Below, in pieces: positions 33,113-64,000 of a stretch of DNA of 64,000 nucleotides. The stretch covers positions 62,001-126,000 of the forward strand of contig NZ_AFEJ02000001.1 in the NCBI RefSeq assembly GCF_000238775.2, read 5' to 3'. Positions within the stretch are counted from its first letter, which is position 1. Each line of letters opens with the position of its first letter. The translations under genes were made by a program, and so were the position numbers. The notes beneath the pieces were generated by a model. That model worked only from the letters and a program-made list of their open reading frames with translations, did no database searches and had not been told where the DNA came from. The stretch is from Acaryochloris sp. CCMEE 5410 (lineage in GTDB: Bacteria > Cyanobacteriota > Cyanobacteriia > Thermosynechococcales > Thermosynechococcaceae).

Positions 33113-34279
33113 TTACCGAGCAAGGGCAACCGTCTGATTACAAAGCTGGCGCAAGCGCTTGGCCGTGTTTTCAGAACCCTTGAGATTAATGGCATGAGAT
33201 GGCTTAGCCGTATGTAAGTGTTGGAGGATGGAATGGGCCAAAGCTGAGGGGGAAAGCTGGTCAGGGGACAACACATCAACGGCCCCCAGTTGGGCCAGTC
33301 GGGAGGCCCGAAGCCATTGCTCATCCGCTTGGTCTGGGGAAGGGGAAGGCAGGATCAGAGACCGAACCTGGGTACTCAACACATTCATGGTGGTGTTGTA
33401 TCCCCCCAAGCTGATAGATAGATCGGCCCCATAGAGGTAATCCATTAAATTCGGAGTAAACCGTTGCAGGGTGATGTTGGGCTGAGAAGAGGTTAAAGTC
33501 TTAAGGGAATGGAACTCCGACTCCGACATAAATGGGCCGGCAAAAGCATAGATCCGATGAGGAATAGTCTGGTGCAGAAGGGGACCCACCTCACCAATAG
33601 CCTTTAGCAAAGAATAACCGTATCGCCCTCCTCCCACGCTGGCGACAATCCGAGGGGACTTTAGATCCTGTTGCACAGACGAAGTGGCTAGAGATTGGGC
33701 GACATACCCGGTGTAAAAGACTTCGCAAGTCAGGGCATGGGCGGAGGGGAAGCAAGTGTCTAGGGATTGGAGATTGCGATCGCAATGGCAAAGCACTAAA
33801 TCATAGAACTGCCGAATTTGATCTAGAATCCGAGTCTGCTTTCGAGCCAACCCCTTTTCACTCATGGATTGGGTCATGATCAGATCTCTGAGACTGCAGA
33901 CCACTTTGACTTGAGCTGCTTTAGCGCGCTCTAGTAAGGGCAGCAATTCGAACGCCATCTTGTACTTACTAAAGGGGAAGCACTCAGTAATCACACAGTC
34001 CGGCTGGAATTGTTCGAATAGGCCAAGAAGTCTTTGTCGACGAGCGATCTTTACTGATTCAACTGATTGATTCAGGGCAATCAATTCACCTGCTTCTTCC
34101 CAAAGAGCAGGGAGATAGACCACCTCCACGCCATCAGGAATTTCAAACTGATCAATGGGCTCTCCACCAATCACCAGACAAACCTGAAAGCCTGGAACTA
34201 AACTACGAATAATTTCAGTACTGCGGACTAGGTGGCCCATTCCGGCCAAATACTGGCAGTAAAATAAGATCTTCTTCAT
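33113..34279 (-). CDS. MurG/COG4671-like GT-B glycosyltransferase, copy 3
   Basis: 388 aa. N-terminal ILFYCQYLAGMGHLVRSTEI (nucleotide-sugar-enzyme GHLxR loop), VVCSLRDLIMTQ, then the donor domain with VASVGGGRYGYSLL and the signature DLSISLGGYNTTMNVLST. Predicted inverting transferase using a UDP-sugar at the cytoplasmic membrane face. One of three tandem paralogues; closest to the next gene upstream (shared FPFxxxxxxFELxPL, TGYVAQ, GYNTTMN). It follows that gene by 17 bp. Confidence 0.82.
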   Translation of the reverse strand: MKKILFYCQYLAGMGHLVRSTEIIRSLVPGFQVCLVIGGEPIDQFEIPDGVEVVYLPALWEEAGELIALNQSVESVKIARRQRLLGLFEQFQPDCVITECFPFSKYKMAFELLPLLERAKAAQVKVVCSLRDLIMTQSMSEKGLARKQTRILDQIRQFYDLVLCHCDRNLQSLDTCFPSAHALTCEVFYTGYVAQSLATSSVQQDLKSPRIVASVGGGRYGYSLLKAIGEVGPLLHQTIPHRIYAFAGPFMSESEFHSLKTLTSSQPNITLQRFTPNLMDYLYGADLSISLGGYNTTMNVLSTQVRSLILPSPSPDQADEQWLRASRLAQLGAVDVLSPDQLSPSALAHSILQHLHTAKPSHAINLKGSENTAKRLRQLCNQTVALAR

Positions 34280-34296
34280 CTGACTTCCTCAGGCGA

Positions 34297-35481
34297 TTAA
34301 GCCGCGACAGCGGGATGGTTGTCATAAGCAAGGGATCGTACTTGCTGAGCCGTTTTCTGTACCCCATCCAGATCAAATCGAGTGGATTGAGGCTTTGAAT
34401 TCAGAGCTCTTTCTACCCGTTGAGCTAGACGTTCAGGGGCTACATCAACTTTTTGCAGCATCTGAGCCACCCCAAGCTCGTCTAATCGGCGGACTCGTAT
34501 CGTTTGTTCTTGATCGTCGTTGCCTGTAAAGGGCAACATTAAGGCATTCACCCCCGTGGTCAAAATATTCATCGTGGTGTTGTACCCCGACATGCTGACT
34601 GAGAGATCCGCCTGCTCCATATAGGCGAGTAGGTTGGGAGTATAGCGGTGAATATGTAGGTTATGACAGTCTCGGCCTGCCTGTTTTAATTGCCAAAACA
34701 CTGACTCAGGAATAAAAGGTCCCGCAAACATCTGAATATGGTGGGGAATGCGCGTTGACAAGTATTCCGCTGCACCGACCATTCCCCTCAGCAACTCATG
34801 CCCAAATCGACCACCCCCCACACTGACGAGTATCATGGGAGACTGTCGGCTCAAGGCCCATCGATCCACCAATGTCAGTCGATTATTTTCGGGTTGTTGG
34901 GCCACATAACCCGTATAGTGAACCTCACAATTGAGATCCTCAACCCGAGAGAAGCTGTCTTCCAGGGGATGTAAACTGGGGTCTCCATGAATCAGCAACT
35001 GATCAAAGTATTGATTCATCAGTCGGCAAATTTTAGCTTCATGGCGGGCTTGGTCTTGCTTGGTCACCACGATATCGCGCAGACTGCAGACCACTTTGGT
35101 GCCATTGGCCTTAGCAGCTTCCATTAGCGGAATCAACTCAAAAGAAAACCGCCGTCGGCCAAAGGGGAAGAGTTCCACCATCAGCACATCAGGTTGAAAA
35201 GTTGCTATTTGGTTAAGAAGTAAGTGTTTACGAGTTTCCTGAACAACTTCCAAGCTCACGGATTGATCCACCGGACGCAACTCACGAAACTCGATGTCGG
35301 TCTTGATTGCTGGCAAATTGACAACAGTGACGCCATTGGGAACCTGGTAATTCTGAATCACTTCCCCCCCATTGATAAAGCAAATCTCAAAGTCTTCCAC
35401 TAGGCCCCGCACAATTTCCATGCTGCGGATCAGGTGACCCATGCCTAGAATGTGTTGGCAATAAAACATCAATTTTTTCAT
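34297..35481 (-). CDS. MurG/COG4671-like GT-B glycosyltransferase, copy 2
   Basis: 394 aa with the same architecture as its neighbours: LMFYCQHILGMGHLIRSMEI, VVCSLRDIVVTKQDQ, VHYTGYVAQ, LVSVGGGRFGHELL and DLSVSMSGYNTTMNILTTG, then ERLAQRVERAL. The first Gly of the GGYNT motif is Ser here, which may be neutral. It lies 41 bp after copy 1 and 17 bp before copy 3. Triplication suggests successive additions of similar sugars or dosage; which one is not visible. Confidence 0.82.
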   Translation of the reverse strand: MKKLMFYCQHILGMGHLIRSMEIVRGLVEDFEICFINGGEVIQNYQVPNGVTVVNLPAIKTDIEFRELRPVDQSVSLEVVQETRKHLLLNQIATFQPDVLMVELFPFGRRRFSFELIPLMEAAKANGTKVVCSLRDIVVTKQDQARHEAKICRLMNQYFDQLLIHGDPSLHPLEDSFSRVEDLNCEVHYTGYVAQQPENNRLTLVDRWALSRQSPMILVSVGGGRFGHELLRGMVGAAEYLSTRIPHHIQMFAGPFIPESVFWQLKQAGRDCHNLHIHRYTPNLLAYMEQADLSVSMSGYNTTMNILTTGVNALMLPFTGNDDQEQTIRVRRLDELGVAQMLQKVDVAPERLAQRVERALNSKPQSTRFDLDGVQKTAQQVRSLAYDNHPAVAA

Positions 35482-35522
35482 AACTAATATCCAGAATTTG
35501 AATTACAGAAAAGTAGCTGCCC

Positions 35523-36722
35523 TTAAGCCAAAGCCGGTTCTCGAGCAGGGGGGCGAAGGAACAAGTTGGATAACTGATTCGCAATATTTGGTAGACCCTT
35601 GAAATCGAGTTCTAAAGAAGGGGTTGCTCGATCCTCTAGTTGGGCGATGACCGCTTGCATTAAGGTCTTAGGCTGAAGATGATTGGGGTGAATCGCCCGA
35701 ATCAATCCGTTGTGCATAAACCGTTCTGCCCGAATCAGCTGTTCCTGGGAAGGGGTAATTCGAGGAACCACAACTGTACGTTTGTCCAGAGCTAAGATTT
35801 CAGTCAGGGTGTTGTATCCTCCCATAGAGACAACAGCATCAGCAGCATCTAAATAACCAATTAGATTGTCCGTAAATGCTTGAACTTCGACACCAGAAAA
35901 TTGCAAGGCTTGTGTTTGGATATCCTGCTGCTGGGATAAGGGCATCTCTGGACCGCAGAGAATAACGCTTCGAACCTTCACCTGATTTGGAAGGTATTTC
36001 AATCCTGCGAGGTAAGCTTTCACCAAGGGATAACCATCTTCTCCTCCACCTGGAGTCACTACCACCAACTTCTCTGAAGGCTTTATCCGCAGGAACCAGC
36101 GCAGTTCCATTCGATTGAGCCCTTGAGGCGATTTACGAATATAGCCGCAATAGTGAACCTTTTTCACAATCGGTAATGGGAATTGGTACTCTTGAGCAAC
36201 ATCAAATAACTCGGCCATTCCCACCACTAGGACTTGGTCATACCAGGATTGGATCGCCTGGTAATATCCCTGTCGTTTCCATTCGCCAATTGTTTTTGCA
36301 GGACTATCCAGAATATCTCTAAGGAGTAGTACTTTTTGGGTTTTTGGCTGGTGAGTTTCAAGATGTTCTAGGGTGCTCAGTAACTCCTTTTGAATCCCAT
36401 AGGGCTTTTTGTCAACAAGCAACACATCTGGTTTGAAGTGCAGCGCTGCTGAATGAATTAAGTGGGAACGCCACTTTAGAGTTTCTTCTAACTCAGTTCC
36501 CAAGTATTTTGCGAATAAAGTTCCTGACTGTCCTCGATTAAGGCAAGGAAGTTTGATGTAATCCAAGCCTTTAGGTAGCCGAAAGGCTTGCAGCATCGGT
36601 GAACCAGACACCAGTAAAATCGATAGGTCTGTTTGGTCCTTCAGCAGGTATTCACAGATAGAAAGCATTCTGCGGAGATTGCCAAGACCGAATGCGTCAT
36701 GAGAGTAAACCATCAGTCTCAT
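35523..36722 (-). CDS. MurG/COG4671-like GT-B glycosyltransferase, copy 1
   Basis: 399 aa, the most diverged of the three: MVYSHDAFGLGNLRRMLSIC in place of the GMGHLxR loop, VLLLRDILDSP, VHYCGYIRKSP, VVTPGGGEDGYPLV and AVVSMGGYNTLTEILAL. Likely a glycosyltransferase with a different donor or acceptor. It is the first intact gene of the run that continues through copies 2 and 3, GT4 and the ABC exporter, all with short gaps. About 45 bp upstream ends the 32-codon remnant of a UDP-glucose dehydrogenase gene, and further up lies the 14-bp repeat array. Confidence 0.82.
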   Translation of the reverse strand: MRLMVYSHDAFGLGNLRRMLSICEYLLKDQTDLSILLVSGSPMLQAFRLPKGLDYIKLPCLNRGQSGTLFAKYLGTELEETLKWRSHLIHSAALHFKPDVLLVDKKPYGIQKELLSTLEHLETHQPKTQKVLLLRDILDSPAKTIGEWKRQGYYQAIQSWYDQVLVVGMAELFDVAQEYQFPLPIVKKVHYCGYIRKSPQGLNRMELRWFLRIKPSEKLVVVTPGGGEDGYPLVKAYLAGLKYLPNQVKVRSVILCGPEMPLSQQQDIQTQALQFSGVEVQAFTDNLIGYLDAADAVVSMGGYNTLTEILALDKRTVVVPRITPSQEQLIRAERFMHNGLIRAIHPNHLQPKTLMQAVIAQLEDRATPSLELDFKGLPNIANQLSNLFLRPPAREPALA

Positions 36723-54088: not shown

Positions 54089-55140
54089 TAGGTTGTTAAA
54101 CTCTGAAAATCCTGATTGCCCCTCAATGTCATTGCAGTAAACGGAACCTGTGGTTGATGTTAATGTACTGCTAATAAAGTCGAGCAATTCTTTTATCCTT
54201 AGCATTTATTAACTCTGGCCAATATTTATTAGACGTTGGACTGAGGGCAGGGCTGTTTTAAGTTAGCAGCGAAAAAATAATATCGACCCGATTAGCAAGC
54301 TTAGTCATCGCGGTTTTGAGGGATTGATAGTCGTTTAGCCGCAGGATATTAATCCCAATAGTTCTAAGCACTGACCAATTGAGCAGTGCTTGTTCATCTT
54401 CGAGTCGATAATCATCTTCGCCAAAAACAACATCCTTCGGCCAATGCAACCGATTTTCAATGCCCCAATGTTCTCGGACCAGAGATTGCCAATGATGGGG
54501 TGAGGTGGCAGCTGAACTGATGTAATAGGCGGTATTGTGATACTCCTTTCCTTTGCGAGTACCCCATCGTTGGACACAAAGTACAGAGCGAATTGCTGTC
54601 CATTCTTGTAGGGCTATGCCGACAGGCTCATAAACCTGTATACACCGATGTTCATCTCGTCCTCTACTTTGGGCGGAGTGGATGTGCTCAGCCATGGGTT
54701 TAAGACACTCAAAGTAAGTCTGGAGGTGGTCGTAAAGTCTTCCCTGGTTGGATTTGACCGCCACGAGATAGTCATTACCCGAGGCCACAATCTTCTCAAG
54801 TGTTTTTTTGGGCGTGTAAGGCATCCATGGTAATCAGTAAGCCATCGAGTTGAAGGGTTTCCAACAGTGCCTGCACGACTTTGATTTCGCTATTATCCTC
54901 CTGAGTGAGGGCTTCGAGCTTGAGGGTGATGCCTGCTTCCACCGCAAATAAACTCACCAAGCCCACAAACGCTGCTTCCCCTTGGCATCTGTCAGCCCCT
55001 GACGAATCCGTTTGCCATCAATGGAGGCTGCATAATTATCGGGAGAGTGAGTCTGGGCTTTCGAGAGCATCCATGCTTCAAATTGGTGGCTCAACGCGTG
55101 GAAGTCAAGCCCCTTCATCACTCGACGAAAGGTACAGTGA

Positions 55141-56284
55141 TACCAAATCCGATTTATATAACTCCGATATAATGCATAATTAGAGAATGCCAAGAAAACT
55201 ATATCTCAAACCCCATTTTTCGCCTGACGAGCTGAAGTCTCATTACCGAGCCAGCCAAGACCCAGTAGAATCGCGCCGCTGGCATCTACTATGGCTCGTC
55301 AGTGAGCAAACAACCCTGACTCAAGCAGCCCAAGTGGTCGGTCTCAACTACGATTACGCTCGAGAAATCGTCAGGGAGTATAACCACAATGGCGCCCATG
55401 GGTTACGCAACCGACGCAAGATAAGCGACCTCATCAATCTCGCAGTCTTCTGACTCAAGACCAATGTGCACAATTGTTGACTCGTCTACAAACCCCACCC
55501 GCCGACGGTGGTCTATGGAACGGACCTAAAGTAGCCCAGGTCATCGCTCAGATGACCGGAGTCGAGAAGGTGTGGCCCCAACGCGGTTGGGACTATCTCA
55601 AGCGATTGGAGCAGTCCTTGCAATGCCCACGTCCTCATCATCGTAAAGGTGAACCAGAGGCCCAAGCCGCTTTTAAAAAACTGCCTGAGTACAAAGCAGA
55701 ATTGGAGCGACGCTACCCTAATGCTCAGGTCGAAGTTTGGTCTTTTGATGAACATCGTTTAGGCCTTAAACCCATTATTCGAAAGATTTGGGCACCTGTG
55801 GGTCAGCGTCCAATTGCTGAGGTGGACCATCGCTATGAATGGACCTATCTGTATGGATTCGTTCATCCCGCAACTGGCAATACCGAATGGTTCATTCTGC
55901 CTCGGGTCAATGGAGAATGGTTTAATCAAGCCCTACAAAGCTTTGCTCAGCAAGTTGGAGCGGGAAAGCACAAACAGATTCTTCTCGTTCTCGATGGAGC
56001 CGGATGGCATACCTGTAAGAATCGGGTGGTGCCACCTGGCATTCATCTGAAGGTTTTACCCCCCTATTCTCCAGAGCTACAGCCCGCTGAACGGTTGTGG
56101 CGGCTAGCGGACGAACCACTGGCCAATCGGTGTTTTGAGACCCTGGATGACCTCGAAGATGTTCTCGAGCAGCGCTGTCGAACTTTAATGACCATGCAAT
56201 CGGACATTAAAGCTCTAACGCAGTACCATTGGTGGCCAGCTTGACAGATGAGATATTTCGGGGGTTAATGAGTCGGATTTGGTA
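55141..56284. mobile_element. IS630-like element, copy 1, inside ISAs1 copy B
   Basis: 1144 bp with terminal inverted repeats TACCAAATCCGA. TGA is duplicated at 55138-55140 and 56285-56287. Comparison with the uninterrupted ISAs1 copy A (CAGTGAGACGG) shows that TGA, not TA, is the duplicated target. Confidence 0.88.
55187..56244 (+). pseudogene. IS630-family transposase, copy 1, frameshifted
   Basis: HTH part MPRKLYLKPHFSPDELKSHY through VGLNYDYAREIVREYNHNGA, then a frameshift at 55418 (GCAAG; copy 2 has GCAAAG) giving a stop at 55453. The DDE part reads on from LLTRLQTPPADGGLWNGPKV through VWSFDEHRLGLKPIIRKIWA, LLVLDGAGWHTCKN and LPPYSPELQPAERLW, the D-D-E core of the Tc1/mariner-IS630 superfamily. 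Repairing the single A restores about 350 residues. Confidence 0.88.
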
Positions 56285-56977
56285 TGAGACGGAACTTCAA
56301 GGCTCTCAAGTCCCAATAGCTCACTTAAAGGCTGGCGATAATCGCTCGTAAAGGTTTCTAAGGGGCGATATCCCTGGTATCCAGCAAGCATACCCATCAC
56401 CATCAACAGCAACAGAAGCCATAACGGATGAGTACGGCCATGGGCACTGCGGAAATCCGGGACTTGCTTCAAAGTATCGATTAGATGGCTCATCGGTCTC
56501 TCTACTGTTGGTCAGTAGAACCATCCTATTTTTTCTAGGAGTAACGTAAAACAACCCTGGGACTGAGGGTAGAAATGCAAAGCACAATATTATGATTCTT
56601 CTGGCAAAATTGCCTCTAGATAAGGTTCAATATAGTTGCGACCCTGTTCAAGATAGTAGGGAGTAAAAAGGGACTCAAACTCTTGAGCTACGACCTGTGT
56701 GGCGGATTCTAGCCGCTGGCGGCCATAGACCAAGAATTGTGCTGCGGACGAAGCATAGTATTCTCGCTCCGCACCCTCAATATGCTTTTTAAAGGCAGCA
56801 TGATAGAGCTCGCGGACCTCATTCATCAGCTGTTCAATCGGGGGTGAGAAGTGAATAGAGTCTCCACTGGGGAGATCGATTTGCTTGGCTAGAATAAATC
56901 CAATCACGGTTCTCATACATTCACGGGTCTGGTCTACCGAAAGGCACTGTGGGTCTTGTCGGCGAAATCCCCATTGA

Positions 56978-58123
56978 TACCAAATCCGACTCATTAACCC
57001 CCGAAATATCTTATCTGTCAAGCTGGCCACCAATGGTAGTGAGTGAGAGCTTGAATGTCTGATTGCATTGTCATTAAAGTTCGACAGCGCTGCTCGAGCA
57101 CATCTTCCAACTCATCCAGGGTCTCAAAGCATCGATTGGCCAGTGGTTCATCCGCTAGCCGCCACAACCGTTCAGCGGGCTGTAGCTCTGGAGAATAGGG
57201 GGGTAAAACCTTCAGATGAATGCCTTTAGGTACCACCAGATTTTTACAGGTATGCCATCCGGCTCCATCGAGAACGAGAAGAATCTGTTTGTGCTTTCCC
57301 GCTCCAACTTGCTGAGCAAAGCTTTGTAGGGCTTGATTAAACCATTCTCCATTGACCCGAGGCAGAATGAACCATTCGGTATTGCCAGTTGCGGGATGAA
57401 CGAATCCATACAGATAGGTCCATTCATAGCGATGGTCCACCTCAGCAATTGGACGCTGACCCACAGGCGCCCAAATCTTTCGAATAATGGGTTTAAGGCC
57501 TAAACGATGTTCATCCAAGGACCAAACTTCGACCTGAGCATTAGGGTAGCGTCGCTCCAATTCTGCTTTGTACTTAGGCAGTTTTTTTAAAAGCGGCTTG
57601 GGCCTCTGGTTCACCTTTACGGTGGTGAGGACGTGGGCATTGCAGGGACTGCTCCAATCGCTTGAGATAGTCCCAACCGCGTTGGGGCCAAACCTTATCG
57701 ACTCCTGTCATCTGAGCGATGACCTGGGCTACTTTGGGGCCGTTCCATAGACCACCGTCGGCGGGTGGGGTTTGTAGACGAGTCAACAATTGTGCACATT
57801 GGTCTTGAGTCAGAAGACTGCGAGATTGATGAGGTCGCTTATCTTTGCGTCGGTTGCGTAACCCATGGGCGCCATTGTGGTTATACTCCCTGACGATTTC
57901 TCGAGCGTAATCGTAGTTGAGACCGACCACTTGGGCTGCTTGAGTTAGCGTTGTTTGCTCACTGACGAGCCACAGCAGATGCCAGCGGCGCGATTCTACT
58001 GGGTCTTGGCTGGCTCGATAATGAGACTTCAGCTCGTCAGGCGAAAAATGGGGTTCGAGATATAGTTTTCTTGGCATTCTCTAATTATGCATTATATCGG
58101 AGTTATATAAATCGGATTTGGTA
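56978..58123. mobile_element. IS630-like element, copy 2
   Basis: 1146 bp, opposite in orientation to copy 1, with the same ends (TACCAAATCCGA) and again a TGA duplication (56975-56977 and 58124-58126). Nearly identical in sequence to copy 1. Confidence 0.88.
57018..58077 (-). pseudogene. IS630-family transposase, copy 2, frameshifted
   Basis: Reads MPRKLYLEPHFSPDELKSHY through NRRKDKRPHQSRSLLTQDQC to AAFKKTA and stops. An extra A in a run (T7 at 57582-57588 on +; copy 1 has six) shifts the frame, and LPKYKAELERRYPNAQVEVW onward continues to HYHWWPA at 57018. So copy 2 is intact where copy 1 is broken and the reverse. A -1/+1 slippage on A7 could in principle yield some full-length enzyme. 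Confidence 0.88.
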
Positions 58124-58380
58124 TGAGTGCAACCATTGGTGACTTCCAGTACTCGCAATAGGGCCAGTTTATCTAGCTCTTTGGAATCGAACCGTTCTAA
58201 GGCCAAAATATGATGCTCAACCCGGTGCTGAAAACTGGCAAAATCAGCCTCAAAATATTGTCTGAGCTCCTTGATTTGGGACAGTTTCTGCCAGTTGGGC
58301 AACATGATGGTATTACCTCTATTGTTGCTAACAGTTTAGAGGAGCCCCCCATAAAAGACTGGGTTGTAATTATTCGTGAA

Positions 58381-60843
58381 CTAAAACTGAGGCGGCAATT
58401 CTGCTGGTGGTGGCGAATTGCGATCGCGGGGTACGGGTTGAATACCGCCGGGTGGATCGGGTAAAGGCGGAGCAGGTGCTGCCGCTGCGTTGGGATCTAC
58501 CCCAGGGGTTACCGCTGGAGGAGTTGAATTATTCGCCTCAGCACTTGCGGGGGCATCGGGCGCTTGAGCCACTGGAGCAGGAGGTGCCACGGTTTCAATC
58601 ACCACGGATCGATTTTGTTGTTCGCCTTTGGCATTCGTGACTTGCAGGGTTAGGGTTTGGGTGGCAGAGGTGGGGCCAAATGATAAATTTGCCTTGCCCT
58701 GGAGAGGAACAGTCCCTGGGGCAGGCAGTAAATTGACCTTAGTATTTTTACTCCCTTTAACCTTCCAGGATACCTTCACGATCAACGGCGTTTGATCTTT
58801 GAGGGCAAACACATATTTCGGTTTTGCAATCTGGCCATTAATTTTGAATTCCTGGATTTGTACTGGCCCAGGCTGAATCTGGATCGGCTCGGTTTTTTGA
58901 ATAATCGGAGATGGCTCTGCAGGCGGATTGGCCTGGGTTGGTTTCGGGTCGACTTTGAGCTCAAAGGTATAGGTCCCAGCGTCTTGAACCCCGGTTGGTA
59001 CATTCAGACAAACTAGGGTTTGGACGTCCAAACGACAATTTTTTTGTAAGGACTGGGGAATACCTTGAGTGAAGTCAAATATTTTGGGAGCTGTGACTGG
59101 TGCATTATCTGCTCCCCGACTAATTAGTGTCACTTTGGTCCCTTTGATCTGGGTGATTTTCCAGTTCAGAAAAATCCCTGATGGTCCCTTTGGGGGAACC
59201 TGACCAATAGGTTCTGTATAGGTGGTCTTTGTAGATTCAAATTGTTGAATTTGAGGGGGAGGGAAGGGTTGAACCACAATTGCCTCTGTTTTGGCCGCAA
59301 TGGGTTGAGGGACGCCCTCGGGTTGAGGGGAGAGAGACAGCTCAAATCGATAGGTGCCCGGTTTTCGTGCATCCGTCGGCACCTGCTGACACCGCAGGAC
59401 CTCAGTTAGGGTACAAAAATGGCTAAGGTCTGAGGGCATTCCCTTTTGGAAATCGTAGACAAAGGGACCACTCATCACGACCCCGTCAGGAGAAACTCCT
59501 TTCAGTTGAAGCTGCTTGAATTTCTGAGGATTTTTTATGGTCCAGTTCAGTTCAATGGGACGACCATCGGCCTCTTTGAGAGTGTAGGTTGCTGGGGCAA
59601 AGCTGATAATCTCGGCTCGGGCTGGGGGACGGGTCAGTAACCACCATACGAGTAAGGCAATCCCAACTAAGGTGCCAAACAGGGTCAAAATAACCAGCAA
59701 TAATTGCCACCAAGGTCGAGGTTCCCAAATCAATGCTCCTTGAAAGCGATTATTGGCAAGGGGGAGTTGCTGGGCATCTTCCAACTCCAGGGCAAAGTTG
59801 AGGGGGCGACCATAAAAGGGGCGCTTCCACCATTTGGTGGGCTGAACTTCTAAGCTGACCTTGGTCGAGGCATGGGGTAATAAATGGATTTGGGTGGGGT
59901 TAAGGGTATAGTCGCAGAGTTCTTCCGCGTCTAGATTTTGGACCTGTAAATTGAGGGTTCGTGGGGTATTCCCAGCATTGTGGAGTCGCAGTTCAAACCA
60001 TCCGGACTGGCTCTTGACTTGGCTGACCAGGGAAATGAGCTCGATATCAACCTGGTAAATCGGTAAAACTTGTAAATAAACCGCTTCCAACAACACCAGT
60101 TCCGGGTTATTCATGGAAAACAGGCGGATGGTGGGGGTATAAATGCCTGCATCCGTACCTAGGGGCGGCTGAATCAATACCTGAATTTGACCCGTATCCC
60201 CTGGGTTGAGTTCAAGGGCTTCACTGGCAATCACAACGCCGGTCTGGGGTCCTTCTGGATAAATAATCTTGACCCATTCGGCAGGCAGGTCTGGACAGAT
60301 GAGGCGGAATCGATCGACGCGATCGCATCGGTTATCCACCAGTACCGTTAAGGCCAACGCATCTCCAGCTTGTAAAGACAGGGGAGACTCGGACGTGGTG
60401 GTTGGGGTGATGCCTAAAACCGGATTGCTAACTTCTGCCGTTTCCCGGATGTAGGACAGCACCTGTAGCCGAGCCGGATAGCGGATCGGCGTCTCTTCTG
60501 GGTAATGTTTGGGGGCATCAATCGCTAAGGTATAGGGATAAAAGCCCGGTAGGGTTTCCGTTGGCACCTGAATGCGGAAGAACACCTCGCTACTTTCGCC
60601 TGGGTTTAGGGCCAGACTTTCGCGGGAGGAGGTACACCATTGGCTGACGATATCCGTGGGGTCCGTGATATCGATATGGATAATGGCACTGTGAATTCCA
60701 TCGTTGGTGACGGTCACACTCAGCTCGAAAATTTCCCCCGCCTGAATGGCGACATCGCCGGAGGGGTTGCGGATAATGCCCAAGGGATTACCCACTTTCT
60801 GGGCTTGCAGGCCAATTTGATCAACATGGGTGAGGTCTGTCAT
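58381..60843 (-). CDS. Large membrane protein with Ig-like repeats (COG1470-type) and Pro/Ala-rich tail
   Basis: 820 aa. Residues 1-370 contain three or four Ig/CARDB-like beta repeats (FELSVTVTNDGIHSAIIHID, ALNPGESSEVFFRIQVPTET, LELNPGDTGQIQVLIQPPLG, FELRLHNAGNTPRTLNLQVQ). One strong helix follows (about 379-403, WWQLLLVILTLFGTLVGIAL). Residues 410-745 hold three further repeats of about 105 residues, each with an ELNWTIKN/LNWKITQI/KVSWKVKG core and a GTYRFEL/GTYTFEL strand with a Cys pair between. The last 75 residues are Pro/Ala-rich. No signal peptide. The gene follows the Ig-WD40 gene by 16 bp, so they are co-expressed and probably form one complex. Function unknown. Confidence 0.8.
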   Translation of the reverse strand: MTDLTHVDQIGLQAQKVGNPLGIIRNPSGDVAIQAGEIFELSVTVTNDGIHSAIIHIDITDPTDIVSQWCTSSRESLALNPGESSEVFFRIQVPTETLPGFYPYTLAIDAPKHYPEETPIRYPARLQVLSYIRETAEVSNPVLGITPTTTSESPLSLQAGDALALTVLVDNRCDRVDRFRLICPDLPAEWVKIIYPEGPQTGVVIASEALELNPGDTGQIQVLIQPPLGTDAGIYTPTIRLFSMNNPELVLLEAVYLQVLPIYQVDIELISLVSQVKSQSGWFELRLHNAGNTPRTLNLQVQNLDAEELCDYTLNPTQIHLLPHASTKVSLEVQPTKWWKRPFYGRPLNFALELEDAQQLPLANNRFQGALIWEPRPWWQLLLVILTLFGTLVGIALLVWWLLTRPPARAEIISFAPATYTLKEADGRPIELNWTIKNPQKFKQLQLKGVSPDGVVMSGPFVYDFQKGMPSDLSHFCTLTEVLRCQQVPTDARKPGTYRFELSLSPQPEGVPQPIAAKTEAIVVQPFPPPQIQQFESTKTTYTEPIGQVPPKGPSGIFLNWKITQIKGTKVTLISRGADNAPVTAPKIFDFTQGIPQSLQKNCRLDVQTLVCLNVPTGVQDAGTYTFELKVDPKPTQANPPAEPSPIIQKTEPIQIQPGPVQIQEFKINGQIAKPKYVFALKDQTPLIVKVSWKVKGSKNTKVNLLPAPGTVPLQGKANLSFGPTSATQTLTLQVTNAKGEQQNRSVVIETVAPPAPVAQAPDAPASAEANNSTPPAVTPGVDPNAAAAPAPPLPDPPGGIQPVPRDRNSPPPAELPPQF

Positions 60844-60859
60844 GAGCTTGAATCATCCA

Positions 60860-63103
60860 TTAGGGTTTGCCACAGGGGAGAGTTTGTCGCTGTATTCGGG
60901 CCTGAACGTCTTTGACCGTGGTCGAAAATAGACGCACTTGTGTATCATCGCTGCCGCTCAGCACGAGGATCTTGCCACCAATCACCTTCAGGTCCACACT
61001 GTTGATGCGATCGGAGGAGCGGGGATGCAGAATATTTTGAAAGAAGTTTGCCATGCTAACGGTAGAGGGTTCGTAGAGTTCAATCCCCTCTCGGAATTCA
61101 GGATCTCGTTGACCATTGGGCAACAAGGGCCACAGCATGACCCGACCATCATCACCACCGCTGGCTAGGTAACAGCCATCGTCACTCATAGACACGGATC
61201 GCACGGGCTGTATAGCCTCACTATGGGACCAGATTTCAGGCTTTAAGGTTTTGCAGGTGGTCGAATCCTGAAGGCAGGGGGCTAAATTCCACAGGGTAAT
61301 ATTGCCTTGGGTATCTGCGGTAGTCAGGAGCGTTGGCGTATCACGAGCTGTATCAATGCTTTGAATATAGTCGCGGTTGGTGCCTGATTCGGGATAGATA
61401 AGGGGCTCTAGGGCTTGTTTGGACTGCCAATTCCATAAGACCAGTTGATTTTGTTGACCTGCGATCGCAAGCCACTGATCAGGATTCCCCAACAGCACTG
61501 AATCGTAGATGGCGAAAGGCATTTTTTGCTCTTTGAAGATTTTGCGCTGTTGAGCCGTCCTCTGGGTTGCCCAGGCAACAATCGTGCCACTGCCATGACT
61601 ACTGAACAAATAGCGAGAGTCTTGACTAAACTCCACATCCAAAACGCGATCAGCTTTTTCGTAGCTAAAGGTTTGCAGCGGATCTGTATGATCCGTATTT
61701 AAATCCCATAACTGAATTTGGCCATTTTCCAGACCCACCGCCACCAAATCGTTATTGACAGGGCGATAGGTAATTACACGAATGGCTTTTTGCTGCTGAG
61801 CCAATTGTTGGCCCCGCTGAATAATATTTTCCAAGTAGGGGAAAGCCCACCAAGCGCTGAGCCCTTGAACACTCCAACGAATCGCCGTCGTATCGTTAGA
61901 ACTGGACACAGCCTGATCCGCAATACCGTTAAAGGCGACGGAGGTCACGGCCCCCCGATGACCATAATTGCGGTTGTATTGATTAAAGGGAGAAATCCAC
62001 CATAGCCATACCCCGCCGACCAAAGCCATTAAAATCACGAGCCACAACGGGATCCGAGGTTTAACTTTTAGCAGGAGAACATGGGTTTCATCGCGACTAT
62101 CAATGCGTTCGACATTTGACCAAACGGCCTCTACATGCAAGGTATGTTGCTTGGAAAAGCCCAACCAGTGGCGATCAGCTTCAGCAATTAACGACAGTTT
62201 GCCAGAATCCCCCAATCCCAACTTGATATTGTCTGGCATCACCTCAAAGGTGCAGTGAGAGGGTGGATCGACGATCTCTGCTTTCGCATGTTGATATAGG
62301 TTACTGTTATTTTTAAATTGCAATTCATAGATAACCGGAGGAGATTGCCAAAACTTCAATTGAAACTGCTCTGGAATGCAATGTTCCTCAGGCTGGGCCT
62401 GAAAGGCCACAAAACCTAAGGGATCAATTTTCAAATGTCCTTCAATTTGAGTGGGCGGCCCATAGGCATGACTCGCCTCAACCTGGAACCGATAGCCATG
62501 ACTGGGAGCCTGCACTGGATCAGCAGGTACTTTACAGTTAAAGGTGGTTTGCACCCGCCCTCCAGGAGCCAGTTTTACGGTTTGCTCGTTGCCTTCCGGG
62601 AACCAACTGGCATCAATGCCTTGGAGACTGACGGTTGCAGTCGTTTTTAACTGACTGGGGTTATTGACCCATACCGGAATTTGAATTTCCTCTCCCGGAT
62701 CAGCATCAAAATCTTCAACGGGTAAATTTAGCCCCAAGGGCACTGCCCCTGTTCCTTGCGCCAGAGTGAGCTTTAGAGACTCCCGTTCTTCTTCCTGTAG
62801 TTCAATAGAAAAAACCCTTACGGCTAGGCTCATTAAGCCCACAAACCCTGGCACGGGACTATCGGTGATCTCAATTTGGAATTGGGTCGTATCTCCAGGA
62901 GGATTTTTACTACTAATGTCTGGTGAAACGTGATACCACTTGTGCCCAGCTAGATGATTGGTCCCTGCCGCTGAGACCTCAAGCTGGAAACTAGCATACC
63001 GATCGCTGTGATTGACCACCTCCACGGCAAAGGCTGAGGGAGGACCTCCAGGGGTAAAGGCCAACTGCTTGGGTAATACTTGGGTGGCAAGCTGCTTTTC
63101 CAT
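60860..63103 (-). CDS. Membrane protein: Ig-like repeats, one helix, C-terminal WD40 propeller
   Basis: 747 aa. Residues 1-345 show Ig-like repeats of the same style as the next gene (PPSAFAVEVVNHSDRYASFQ, EIQIPVWVNNPSQLKTTATV, YELQFKNNSNLYQHAKAEIV). A helix (about 351-371, IPLWLVILMALVGGVWLWWI) separates them from about seven WD40-type blades (GHRGAVTSVAFNGIADQAVS, VAVGLENGQIQLWDL, TADTQGNITLWNLAP, YLASGGDDGRVMLWPL, VLSGSDDTQVRLFSTTV). WD40 domains scaffold complexes. Basic residues on the N side (KVKPR) favour N-in/C-out, a weak prediction. It starts 3 bp from the cyclic-nucleotide-binding-fold gene stop. Confidence 0.82.
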   Translation of the reverse strand: MEKQLATQVLPKQLAFTPGGPPSAFAVEVVNHSDRYASFQLEVSAAGTNHLAGHKWYHVSPDISSKNPPGDTTQFQIEITDSPVPGFVGLMSLAVRVFSIELQEEERESLKLTLAQGTGAVPLGLNLPVEDFDADPGEEIQIPVWVNNPSQLKTTATVSLQGIDASWFPEGNEQTVKLAPGGRVQTTFNCKVPADPVQAPSHGYRFQVEASHAYGPPTQIEGHLKIDPLGFVAFQAQPEEHCIPEQFQLKFWQSPPVIYELQFKNNSNLYQHAKAEIVDPPSHCTFEVMPDNIKLGLGDSGKLSLIAEADRHWLGFSKQHTLHVEAVWSNVERIDSRDETHVLLLKVKPRIPLWLVILMALVGGVWLWWISPFNQYNRNYGHRGAVTSVAFNGIADQAVSSSNDTTAIRWSVQGLSAWWAFPYLENIIQRGQQLAQQQKAIRVITYRPVNNDLVAVGLENGQIQLWDLNTDHTDPLQTFSYEKADRVLDVEFSQDSRYLFSSHGSGTIVAWATQRTAQQRKIFKEQKMPFAIYDSVLLGNPDQWLAIAGQQNQLVLWNWQSKQALEPLIYPESGTNRDYIQSIDTARDTPTLLTTADTQGNITLWNLAPCLQDSTTCKTLKPEIWSHSEAIQPVRSVSMSDDGCYLASGGDDGRVMLWPLLPNGQRDPEFREGIELYEPSTVSMANFFQNILHPRSSDRINSVDLKVIGGKILVLSGSDDTQVRLFSTTVKDVQARIQRQTLPCGKP

Positions 63104-63106
63104 AGT

Positions 63107-64000
63107 CTAGATAGGGGGTAACTGAGATTGCAGTCGGTCTCGAATCCAGTTCAGACTTGAGATTTGATGTCCCTGCCATTCAGGTTTTCGTTGCCATAAA
63201 ACATTGGCCGTTATATTCACTAAATGGGGATAGCGTTTGAGCAGCTTCAGCAGATCAGACGTTTCGACAATAAATAAGCTGGTTTGGTAAAACGTTTGCC
63301 CTTGAACGGGGGGAAGATCATCGAACAGCAAGCTGAGATCCCCCCAACAATTCCCCGCCGTCAAGGTGATGTTTTGATCGGGGAATTGAAGGCCGCCGAA
63401 GATCACGAAATAGACTTTGCCGGATTCGGGTATCAAGGATTCTTCTGCAGCTAGGTTTTGGCGATAGCCTCGATCTAAAAGCTGCTGGAACTCGATTTCA
63501 GGCCAATTTTGAAAATAATCTACCTGTCTAAGAATGTCGGCGAGTTGCGTATGGCGTTGCAGGAGGCGGTTACCCAATTGAGGAAATTGGCGCAGTAGCC
63601 GCTGAAAAGCCTGATCTTCAATCACAAAAAGCGTGGTTTGTTCAACCGCCAGGATGGTATTTTGGCGGGCAACCCCAGACAGTAAAGCCGTTTCACCAAA
63701 TGCATCCCCGGAAACCCATTTATTTCCTTGTCGTTCAGGATGATCCATCTGGGACTGAATCACCCCGTTGAGAATGATATAAAATACTTGACCCAGCTCT
63801 CCTGCTCGAAAGATCACTTCTCCCGGCTCGTACTGGCGCTGATAGCCACAAGCGATTAAATCTTGAAGTTGATTTTCCGAAAAGTCCTGGAGAAAATCTA
63901 CACTTTGCAAACACCGGAGTAGATCTAAATCCTGAGATTGTCCCAGTTGTTGCCGGACTTGGCGCGATTTTGCTAAAAGCTCGTGGGTATAGGGGATCTG
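63107..64000 (-). CDS. Tandem cyclic-nucleotide-binding-fold (Crp-like) protein, 5' end beyond window
   Basis: The frame is open to the window edge, so the start lies outside; at least 297 codons are visible. After a helical stretch (YTHELLAKSRQVRQQLGQ) the first cNMP fold is clear (EPGEVIFRAGELGQVFYIIL, GDAFGETALLSGVARQNTIL, LFVIEDQAFQRLLRQFPQLG). The Arg in GExALLSGxxR is near the phosphate-binding position, so binding of a cyclic nucleotide is plausible. The second fold (about the last 130 residues: GYRQNLAAEESLIPESGKVY, NCWGDLSLLFDDLPPV) lacks the GE/Arg signature and is probably non-binding. No DNA-binding domain. First visible gene of the operon with the Ig-WD40 and Ig proteins. Confidence 0.85.
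   Translation of the reverse strand, partial: QIPYTHELLAKSRQVRQQLGQSQDLDLLRCLQSVDFLQDFSENQLQDLIACGYQRQYEPGEVIFRAGELGQVFYIILNGVIQSQMDHPERQGNKWVSGDAFGETALLSGVARQNTILAVEQTTLFVIEDQAFQRLLRQFPQLGNRLLQRHTQLADILRQVDYFQNWPEIEFQQLLDRGYRQNLAAEESLIPESGKVYFVIFGGLQFPDQNITLTAGNCWGDLSLLFDDLPPVQGQTFYQTSLFIVETSDLLKLLKRYPHLVNITANVLWQRKPEWQGHQISSLNWIRDRLQSQLPPI

Follow-up and report, generated by a model that had tools for sequence, protein, structure and literature searches.

A predicted membrane receptor and two homologous Ig-domain membrane proteins encoded at the end of a contractile injection system baseplate operon in Acaryochloris

To which system do three closely spaced membrane-protein genes of the cyanobacterium Acaryochloris sp. 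CCMEE 5410 belong? The genes lie at the right end of the stretch of DNA analysed here (the window; 64,000 nucleotides, bases 62001-126000 of contig 1 of an 8.09-Mb genome). The original prediction for this stretch had described a tandem Crp-fold protein and two membrane proteins with immunoglobulin (Ig)-like repeats, had matched the set to no named system, and had speculated that it might be an accessory of a larger surface or injection machine with its core further to the right. The open reading frames (ORFs), all on the minus strand, confirm the predicted gene set and its spacing of 3 bp (receptor/WD40 gene) and 16 bp (WD40/Ig gene). The speculation turned out to be essentially correct, since the four genes upstream of the first one are baseplate genes of a contractile injection system (CIS).

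These four genes are located on the same strand, outside the window, and the complete operon reads gp25, baseplate J, Cis12-like wedge, Cis13-like protein, HAMP-cNMP receptor, Ig-TM-WD40 protein and Ig-TM-Ig protein (cNMP, cyclic nucleoside monophosphate; TM, transmembrane helix). The assignments come from family matches: gp25 with 9.2e-20, baseplate J with 2.6e-198 (TIGR02243), the 351-aa wedge with TIGR02242/Tail_P2_I, and the 460-aa Cis13-like protein with NF053767 in its N-terminal part and DUF4159 further on. The cluster is bounded by ndhM on the opposite strand. Judged from sequence, these upstream genes mark the operon as that of a CIS baseplate, with the three genes at its 3′ end.

The remaining components are encoded elsewhere in the genome (L, C and G numbers are our labels for loci, contigs and genomes). 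Region C2:201-221k holds the genes for the sheath, three tube-like proteins, an AAA ATPase (assigned by family match), a DUF4255-like protein (an assignment that rests on similarity to other loci) and an eCIS_core (DUF4157) protein, a cargo candidate (9.7e-32). Region C1:417-428k encodes a CIS5-like tube, a 2474-aa protein, a CIS_tube protein and VgrG. An extracellular CIS (eCIS)-type core, comprising sheath, inner tube, spike, gp25, baseplate J and Cis12-type wedge, is thus present, and a PAAR tip was seen in relatives. The 2474-aa protein (L012 2433-9857; C1:419433-426857), encoded between the CIS5-like tube and CIS_tube genes, has no Pfam match; its slot in relatives is occupied by variable proteins of 270-1100 aa, and it is a tape-measure or cargo candidate of unusual size. 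Downstream of CIS tube genes in L010 (17046-19241) there is a gene for a protein of 731 aa whose N-terminus is weakly kinase-like and which also has a domain resembling periplasmic binding proteins.

Comparison with solved structures pointed to one CIS lineage. The sheath matched the Streptomyces structures 8bky/9gtp with 6e-114 and Anabaena All3325 with 3e-50, while baseplate J (1e-112) and the Cis12-like wedge (2.6e-7) matched 9gtp, the CIS-Sc structure of Streptomyces coelicolor (PMC12237407), and neither matched an Anabaena chain. By this measure, which is a best match among solved structures and not a tree with reference subtypes, the machine appears to belong to the type IId CIS lineage, with sheath and baseplate nearest to those of Streptomyces. 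The gene set therefore does have a named system, contrary to the original prediction, and its Ig-TM halves match single-TM Ig proteins encoded in Streptomyces CIS clusters. CIS-Sc and the Acaryochloris machine have in common the tubes, the LysM/CIS_tube protein, VgrG, gp25, baseplate J, Cis12, the ATPase and DUF4255. However, the Acaryochloris operon continues into the Cis13-like protein, the HAMP receptor and two single-TM proteins with three Ig domains each, whereas Streptomyces has CisA (Sco4242) at this place.

The association with the CIS extends beyond this genome. A strong match to the Cis13-like protein was found in 83 of 291 genomes of the class, and Fisher tests, in which kinship was ignored, were used to assess co-occurrence. 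A sheath gene was present in 79 of these 83 genomes, compared with 48 of the 208 others, and a match to the Ig protein in 80, compared with 20 of 208. We examined 121 loci, 8 pairs of which were duplicates. In 71 of them the Cis13-like gene is followed by a WD40 gene in the same orientation; the Ig gene is also downstream in 59 of these 71, and a sensor gene is in between in 30. The other 50 loci have no WD40 gene; in 43 of these, 4 kb or more of sequence was available for one. The spacing from the WD40 to the Ig gene is short, and the two often overlap. Where the genes are unlinked, the Ig and/or WD40 gene can adjoin the CIS ATPase gene, and the Ig gene is near the ATPase gene in L170, L171 and L176. 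Pairwise distances of the WD40 and Ig proteins correlate at 0.98, and those of each with baseplate J at 0.94-0.96, although shared descent alone would raise all of these values. The gene order recurs across cyanobacteria, indicating that the arrangement is not due to chance, and a same-genus genome (G216) also carries this module. The original prediction had been staked on the linkage of the genes in other genomes and is not refuted by these counts. On the evidence of sequence and gene order, the three genes belong to the CIS operon lineage and are conserved with it, and their products are a predicted transmembrane receptor and two bitopic proteins that are homologous to each other and have a domain in common with the wedge.

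The receptor gene runs past the edge of the window and has 577 codons in full (window-equivalent 63107-64840; L002 8107-9840). It had been described as encoding a tandem Crp-fold protein with no DNA-binding domain. Two cNMP folds are indeed present, and family searches gave no helix-turn-helix (HTH) match, but the product is a predicted transmembrane receptor, not a soluble protein. It comprises a TM (residues 21-41), a loop of ~128 residues, a second TM (169-192), a HAMP match at 190-250 that is weak and below the cut-off (0.0016), a cNMP domain at 335-418 (cNMP_binding, 1.9e-17) and a second cNMP fold at ~454-542, in which the pocket arginine is missing from its expected place. The identity of a Crp/Fnr transcription factor was ruled out by the lack of an HTH, the two TM helices and HAMP. 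The phosphate-binding cassette G-E...R-(T/S) has the canonical form FFGELSLLLGIPRTAT in relatives, and most of those bearing a cNMP domain keep the canonical pocket motif (FFGELSLLLGIPRTATV); the Acaryochloris copy, FGETALLSGVARQNT, is partly altered, retaining G-E and R and having lost T.

The ten sensor slots of relatives that were fully read all have the layout TM-sensor-TM-HAMP. Their sensor domain is dCache in eight, Tll0287 in one and of no recognised family in one; four of the ten also contain cNMP. The HAMP matches of the dCache or Tll0287 sensors were mostly above the cut-off, and some loci carry two or three sensors in tandem. With its putative sensor, HAMP and cNMP modules the Acaryochloris receptor resembles Cache-HAMP chemoreceptors and Crp-family cNMP proteins; it differs from these in having no methyl-accepting, kinase or HTH output and in joining HAMP to cNMP within a CIS operon. 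The predicted control of a membrane complex by a cyclic nucleotide is plausible but unproven: the relatives have the canonical pocket and the Acaryochloris copy keeps G-E and R, but HAMP proteins devoid of cNMP occupy this slot in many relatives. In other loci FHA, PP2C and Ser/Thr kinase genes adjoin cyanobacterial CIS genes (L066 5333-5908, L063 2868-5220, L170 4047-6014 and L183 8783-11618). These neighbours hint at phospho-signalling as well, reminiscent of the threonine-phosphorylation control of the type VI secretion system (T6SS).

The other two products had been predicted to be single-helix membrane proteins of Ig repeats, one with a WD40 propeller and the other with a Pro/Ala tail, and this was borne out by TM prediction, which gave one helix in each, and by AlphaFold models. 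The WD40 protein was modelled as three Ig domains, the TM and a seven-bladed propeller (mean pLDDT 86.7), and the Ig protein as three Ig domains, the TM, three Ig-like domains and a disordered Pro/Ala tail (mean pLDDT 82.0). In Foldseek searches the propeller matched the seven-bladed 7bie with a TM-score of 0.87 by target length. The model of the Ig protein retrieved only generic strings of Ig domains (e.g. axoneme and macroglobulin chains) with low TM-scores, and a PDB search with the Ig protein and the Cis13-like protein gave no useful match. Identification as a surface-layer or glycosidase protein, suggested by NEW3 and S-layer matches, was rejected because the Ig fold is generic and the genes stand in a CIS context. 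The WD40 protein is conserved in an alignment of 28 sequences (A2), and conservation in the C-terminal domains (WD40, Ig) is close to that in the Ig part, in contrast to typical variable effectors.

Homology between the two proteins covers their three-Ig-TM halves (99.5% over 343 columns), both of which are also matched by the N-terminal domain of the Cis12-like wedge (93 and 96%). In Deinococcus actinosclerus, the Cis12-like gene is immediately followed by one for a kinase-FHA-Ig-TM-beta-repeat protein. Since a kinase needs cytoplasmic ATP, the Ig side of this fusion should be cytoplasmic, and by homology the Ig domains of both bitopic Acaryochloris proteins are probably on the cytoplasmic side. 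Ser/Thr kinase + FHA proteins of ~1600 aa are encoded in Deinococcus CIS clusters (L181 23074-27897 and L185 25788-30566), the one in L181 being fused to the Ig-TM module. A second Ig-TM family (~775 aa) is encoded in the Acaryochloris genome itself (L163 8118-10445; C1:2599118-2601445) and in same-genus relatives (L164, L165), with no recognised CIS gene nearby.

Several known systems resemble parts of this arrangement. The Streptomyces CIS-cluster proteins that match the Ig-TM half (L180 1549-2907, a ‘hydrolytic protein’, L179 4834-6513 and L184 39969-41363; hmmsearch 1e-11 to 1e-13; hhalign 97% for the L180 protein) are built as Ig-Ig-TM-variable end, the layout published for Sco4256-4258. 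The Acaryochloris pair likewise has an Ig-like N-terminus (published as pilus-chaperone-like in Sco4256-4258), one TM, a variable C-terminus and linkage to a CIS, and Sco4256-like homologues were reported in filamentous cyanobacteria (PMC10020575). The pair differs in having three Ig domains and not about two, WD40 or triple-Ig C-termini, and the status of a conserved pair in a baseplate operon. The label Sco4256-like is given by architecture, the homology having been compared with plasmid-borne Streptomyces CIS-cluster relatives and not with Sco4256 itself. CisA, a membrane protein needed for firing in Streptomyces (PMC12237407), is also bitopic and encoded just after the baseplate genes, but is set apart by its published description (unstructured N-terminus, substrate-binding-like C-terminus), in which no Ig or WD40 domain figures. 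Hbor_38620, a conserved putative membrane protein linked to the haloarchaeal T6SS-like CIS with membrane-bound particles (PMC11566945), differs in its six TM helices and small cytoplasmic domain, with no Ig, WD40 or sensor domain described.

On balance, we consider it probable that the three genes encode the membrane end of a type IId-like CIS baseplate operon, namely a docking and sensing complex for the particle. The three Ig domains of both bitopic proteins would lie in the cytoplasm, where they could meet the wedge with its homologous Ig domain, and the WD40 and Ig-like ends would point to the periplasm or the thylakoid lumen. The pair would dock the particle to the membrane, a role that falls to CisA in Streptomyces and to tail fibres in other systems. 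The HAMP-cNMP receptor would sense an outside ligand together with a cytoplasmic cyclic nucleotide and relay this as a conformational change to the baseplate once docked, making firing, or the licence to fire, dependent on the environment and the state of the cell. A more specific proposal, which we offer tentatively, is a cyanobacterial class of membrane-docked, receptor-gated type IId CIS, in which a Cache/HAMP(/cNMP) receptor from the baseplate operon, responding to an external ligand and a cyclic nucleotide, licenses firing directly through the Ig-TM-WD40/Ig-TM-Ig pair that meets the wedge by Ig-Ig contact.

A number of observations weigh against the docking and sensing complex. A sensor gene is missing from the slot in more than half of the loci with a WD40 gene, and cNMP is absent from many of the sensor-slot proteins of relatives. 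In Acaryochloris itself the cNMP pocket is altered, and the sensor domain gave no family match, nor did it match Tll0287 or dCache in hhalign comparisons of single sequences. Charge bias around the TM helices does not settle the topology, as the WD40 proteins lean towards N-in and the Ig proteins the opposite way. Ig folds are generic, and the contact of these proteins with the baseplate is putative. That all parts form one joint particle is an assumption, as the core CIS genes of this genome are not linked to the operon. Finally, the single-TM Ig relatives of Streptomyces were published as effectors, not anchors (PMC10066040).

The last point makes an effector function the main and serious rival explanation, possible in our judgement though doubtful. 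The two Ig-TM proteins would then be cargo, or membrane toxins linked to it, that are set free when the machine fires and kill or remodel the cell, and the receptor would be a separate regulator. Sco4256-4258 have a single TM and show toxicity in E. coli, and without them the tube is empty and CIS-linked death no longer occurs (PMC10066040); the homology of the Streptomyces Ig-Ig-TM-variable proteins to the Ig-TM half and the homologues reported in filamentous cyanobacteria favour the same explanation. However, the WD40 and Ig ends are conserved about as well as the Ig part, the pair usually occurs as one copy each beside the baseplate genes, a membrane protein of 85 kDa with a folded seven-bladed propeller is expected to be too large for the CIS tube, and the genome has a separate cargo candidate in the eCIS_core protein. 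The conserved C-termini and the size of the propeller thus speak against effectors, but not decisively.

The remaining explanations receive much less weight. That the module is a decaying remnant, no longer working in this strain after insertion sequences (ISs) entered its 3′ end, with the core elsewhere, seems improbable: a fourth ORF is split by an IS, IS elements crowd the left side and the machine is spread over three loci, but all seven operon ORFs and those for sheath, tube and VgrG are open, relatives with a complete set of parts often have them at separate loci, and the split ORF is outside the conserved module. The thylakoid-anchored CIS (tCIS) of Anabaena (7b5h) likewise comes from a cyanobacterium, has membrane proteins and is expected to contact a membrane, and its thylakoid anchoring has been published (PMC8894136). 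Its anchors, however, are extensions of its own Cis12 and Cis13, plus a Cis19 crown, and its sheath is of another lineage. We rejected tCIS membership, and consider it very unlikely that the proteins described here are the Cis12/Cis13/Cis19 anchors under other names, because the sheath is far nearer to that of Streptomyces than to All3325, the baseplate J and Cis12-like proteins match 9gtp and no Anabaena chain, and the Acaryochloris Cis12- and Cis13-like proteins have no predicted TM. Least credible of all is a membrane signalling complex that has nothing to do with the CIS and whose genes simply happen to be downstream of the baseplate genes. Some distant paralogues of the Ig protein (L163-L169) are indeed away from any CIS gene, but the co-occurrence of the Ig protein with the Cis13-like protein across genomes, the conserved gene order, the unlinked copies adjoining the CIS ATPase in three loci and the homologues in Streptomyces CIS clusters all argue against it.

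The published cases that we found on how an intracellular CIS is brought to the membrane and told to fire are CisA in Streptomyces (PMC12237407), the putative archaeal anchor (PMC11566945) and the tCIS extensions (PMC8894136). Baseplate docking and signal-gated firing by the complex proposed here would add a sensor that is encoded within the baseplate operon, has a recognisable ligand-binding domain in most relatives and recurs across cyanobacteria. Receptor, signal and dock thus each have a defined candidate, the receptor being accompanied by two conserved bitopic proteins that have a domain in common with the wedge, and, if the proposal is true, the firing trigger of such machines becomes testable. 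The kind of machine and the existence of cyanobacterial Sco4256 homologues were already known. The receptor encoded in the baseplate operon, its WD40 partner and the pair with three Ig domains each are apparently new, as we found no description of the WD40 protein, the three-Ig pair or HAMP/cNMP receptors in CIS clusters in the open-access literature.

Table. Coordinates, in window positions, of the three genes, their domains and the interrupted ORF next to them
Feature	Position	Strand	Basis
TM-sensor-TM-HAMP-cNMP-cNMP receptor, C-terminal 297 codons	63107..64000	-	ORF; continues outside the window to window-equivalent 64840
First cNMP domain, aa 335-418, pocket motif AFGETALLSGVARQNT	63587..63838	-	Pfam and motif reading
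Second, degenerate cNMP fold, aa ~454-542	63215..63481	-	hhalign 97%
Ig-Ig-Ig-TM-WD40 protein, 747 aa	60860..63103	-	ORF, Pfam, TM prediction, model, Foldseek
TM helix of WD40 protein, aa 349-373	61985..62059	-	TM prediction, model
Seven-bladed WD40 propeller, aa ~380-735	60899..61966	-	Pfam WD40; Foldseek
Ig-Ig-Ig-TM-Ig-Ig-Ig protein with disordered Pro/Ala tail, 820 aa	58381..60843	-	ORF, TM prediction, model, alignment A3
TM helix of Ig protein, aa 377-404	59632..59715	-	TM prediction, model
Fourth ORF, first part (approximate limits)	58135..58306	-	ORF reading
IS630-type element with two transposase ORFs, inside fourth ORF	57018..58077	-	ORFs
Fourth ORF, last part	56590..57033	-	ORFs; no family match

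The original prediction also included a fourth gene of 188 codons split by an IS. A non-transposase ORF downstream of the Ig gene is indeed cut by an IS630-type element, but the intact 188-aa ORF (54258-54824) is a different gene and was rejected as the fourth one, as it encodes a transposase (PF01609). The interrupted ORF had no Pfam match and no relative among the loci compared up to that stage. The region 54258-58077 of the window is a nested IS cluster made up of a DDE_Tnp_1 element and two IS630-type copies, one of which splits the short ORF. To the right of the window, an intact gene for a 365-aa transposase-like protein, by eye of the IS630 type, was found in L003 (7730-8827). Elsewhere in the window, three similar genes (388, 394 and 399 aa) stand in tandem on the minus strand at 33113-36722; by eye, their products resemble MurG-type glycosyltransferases.

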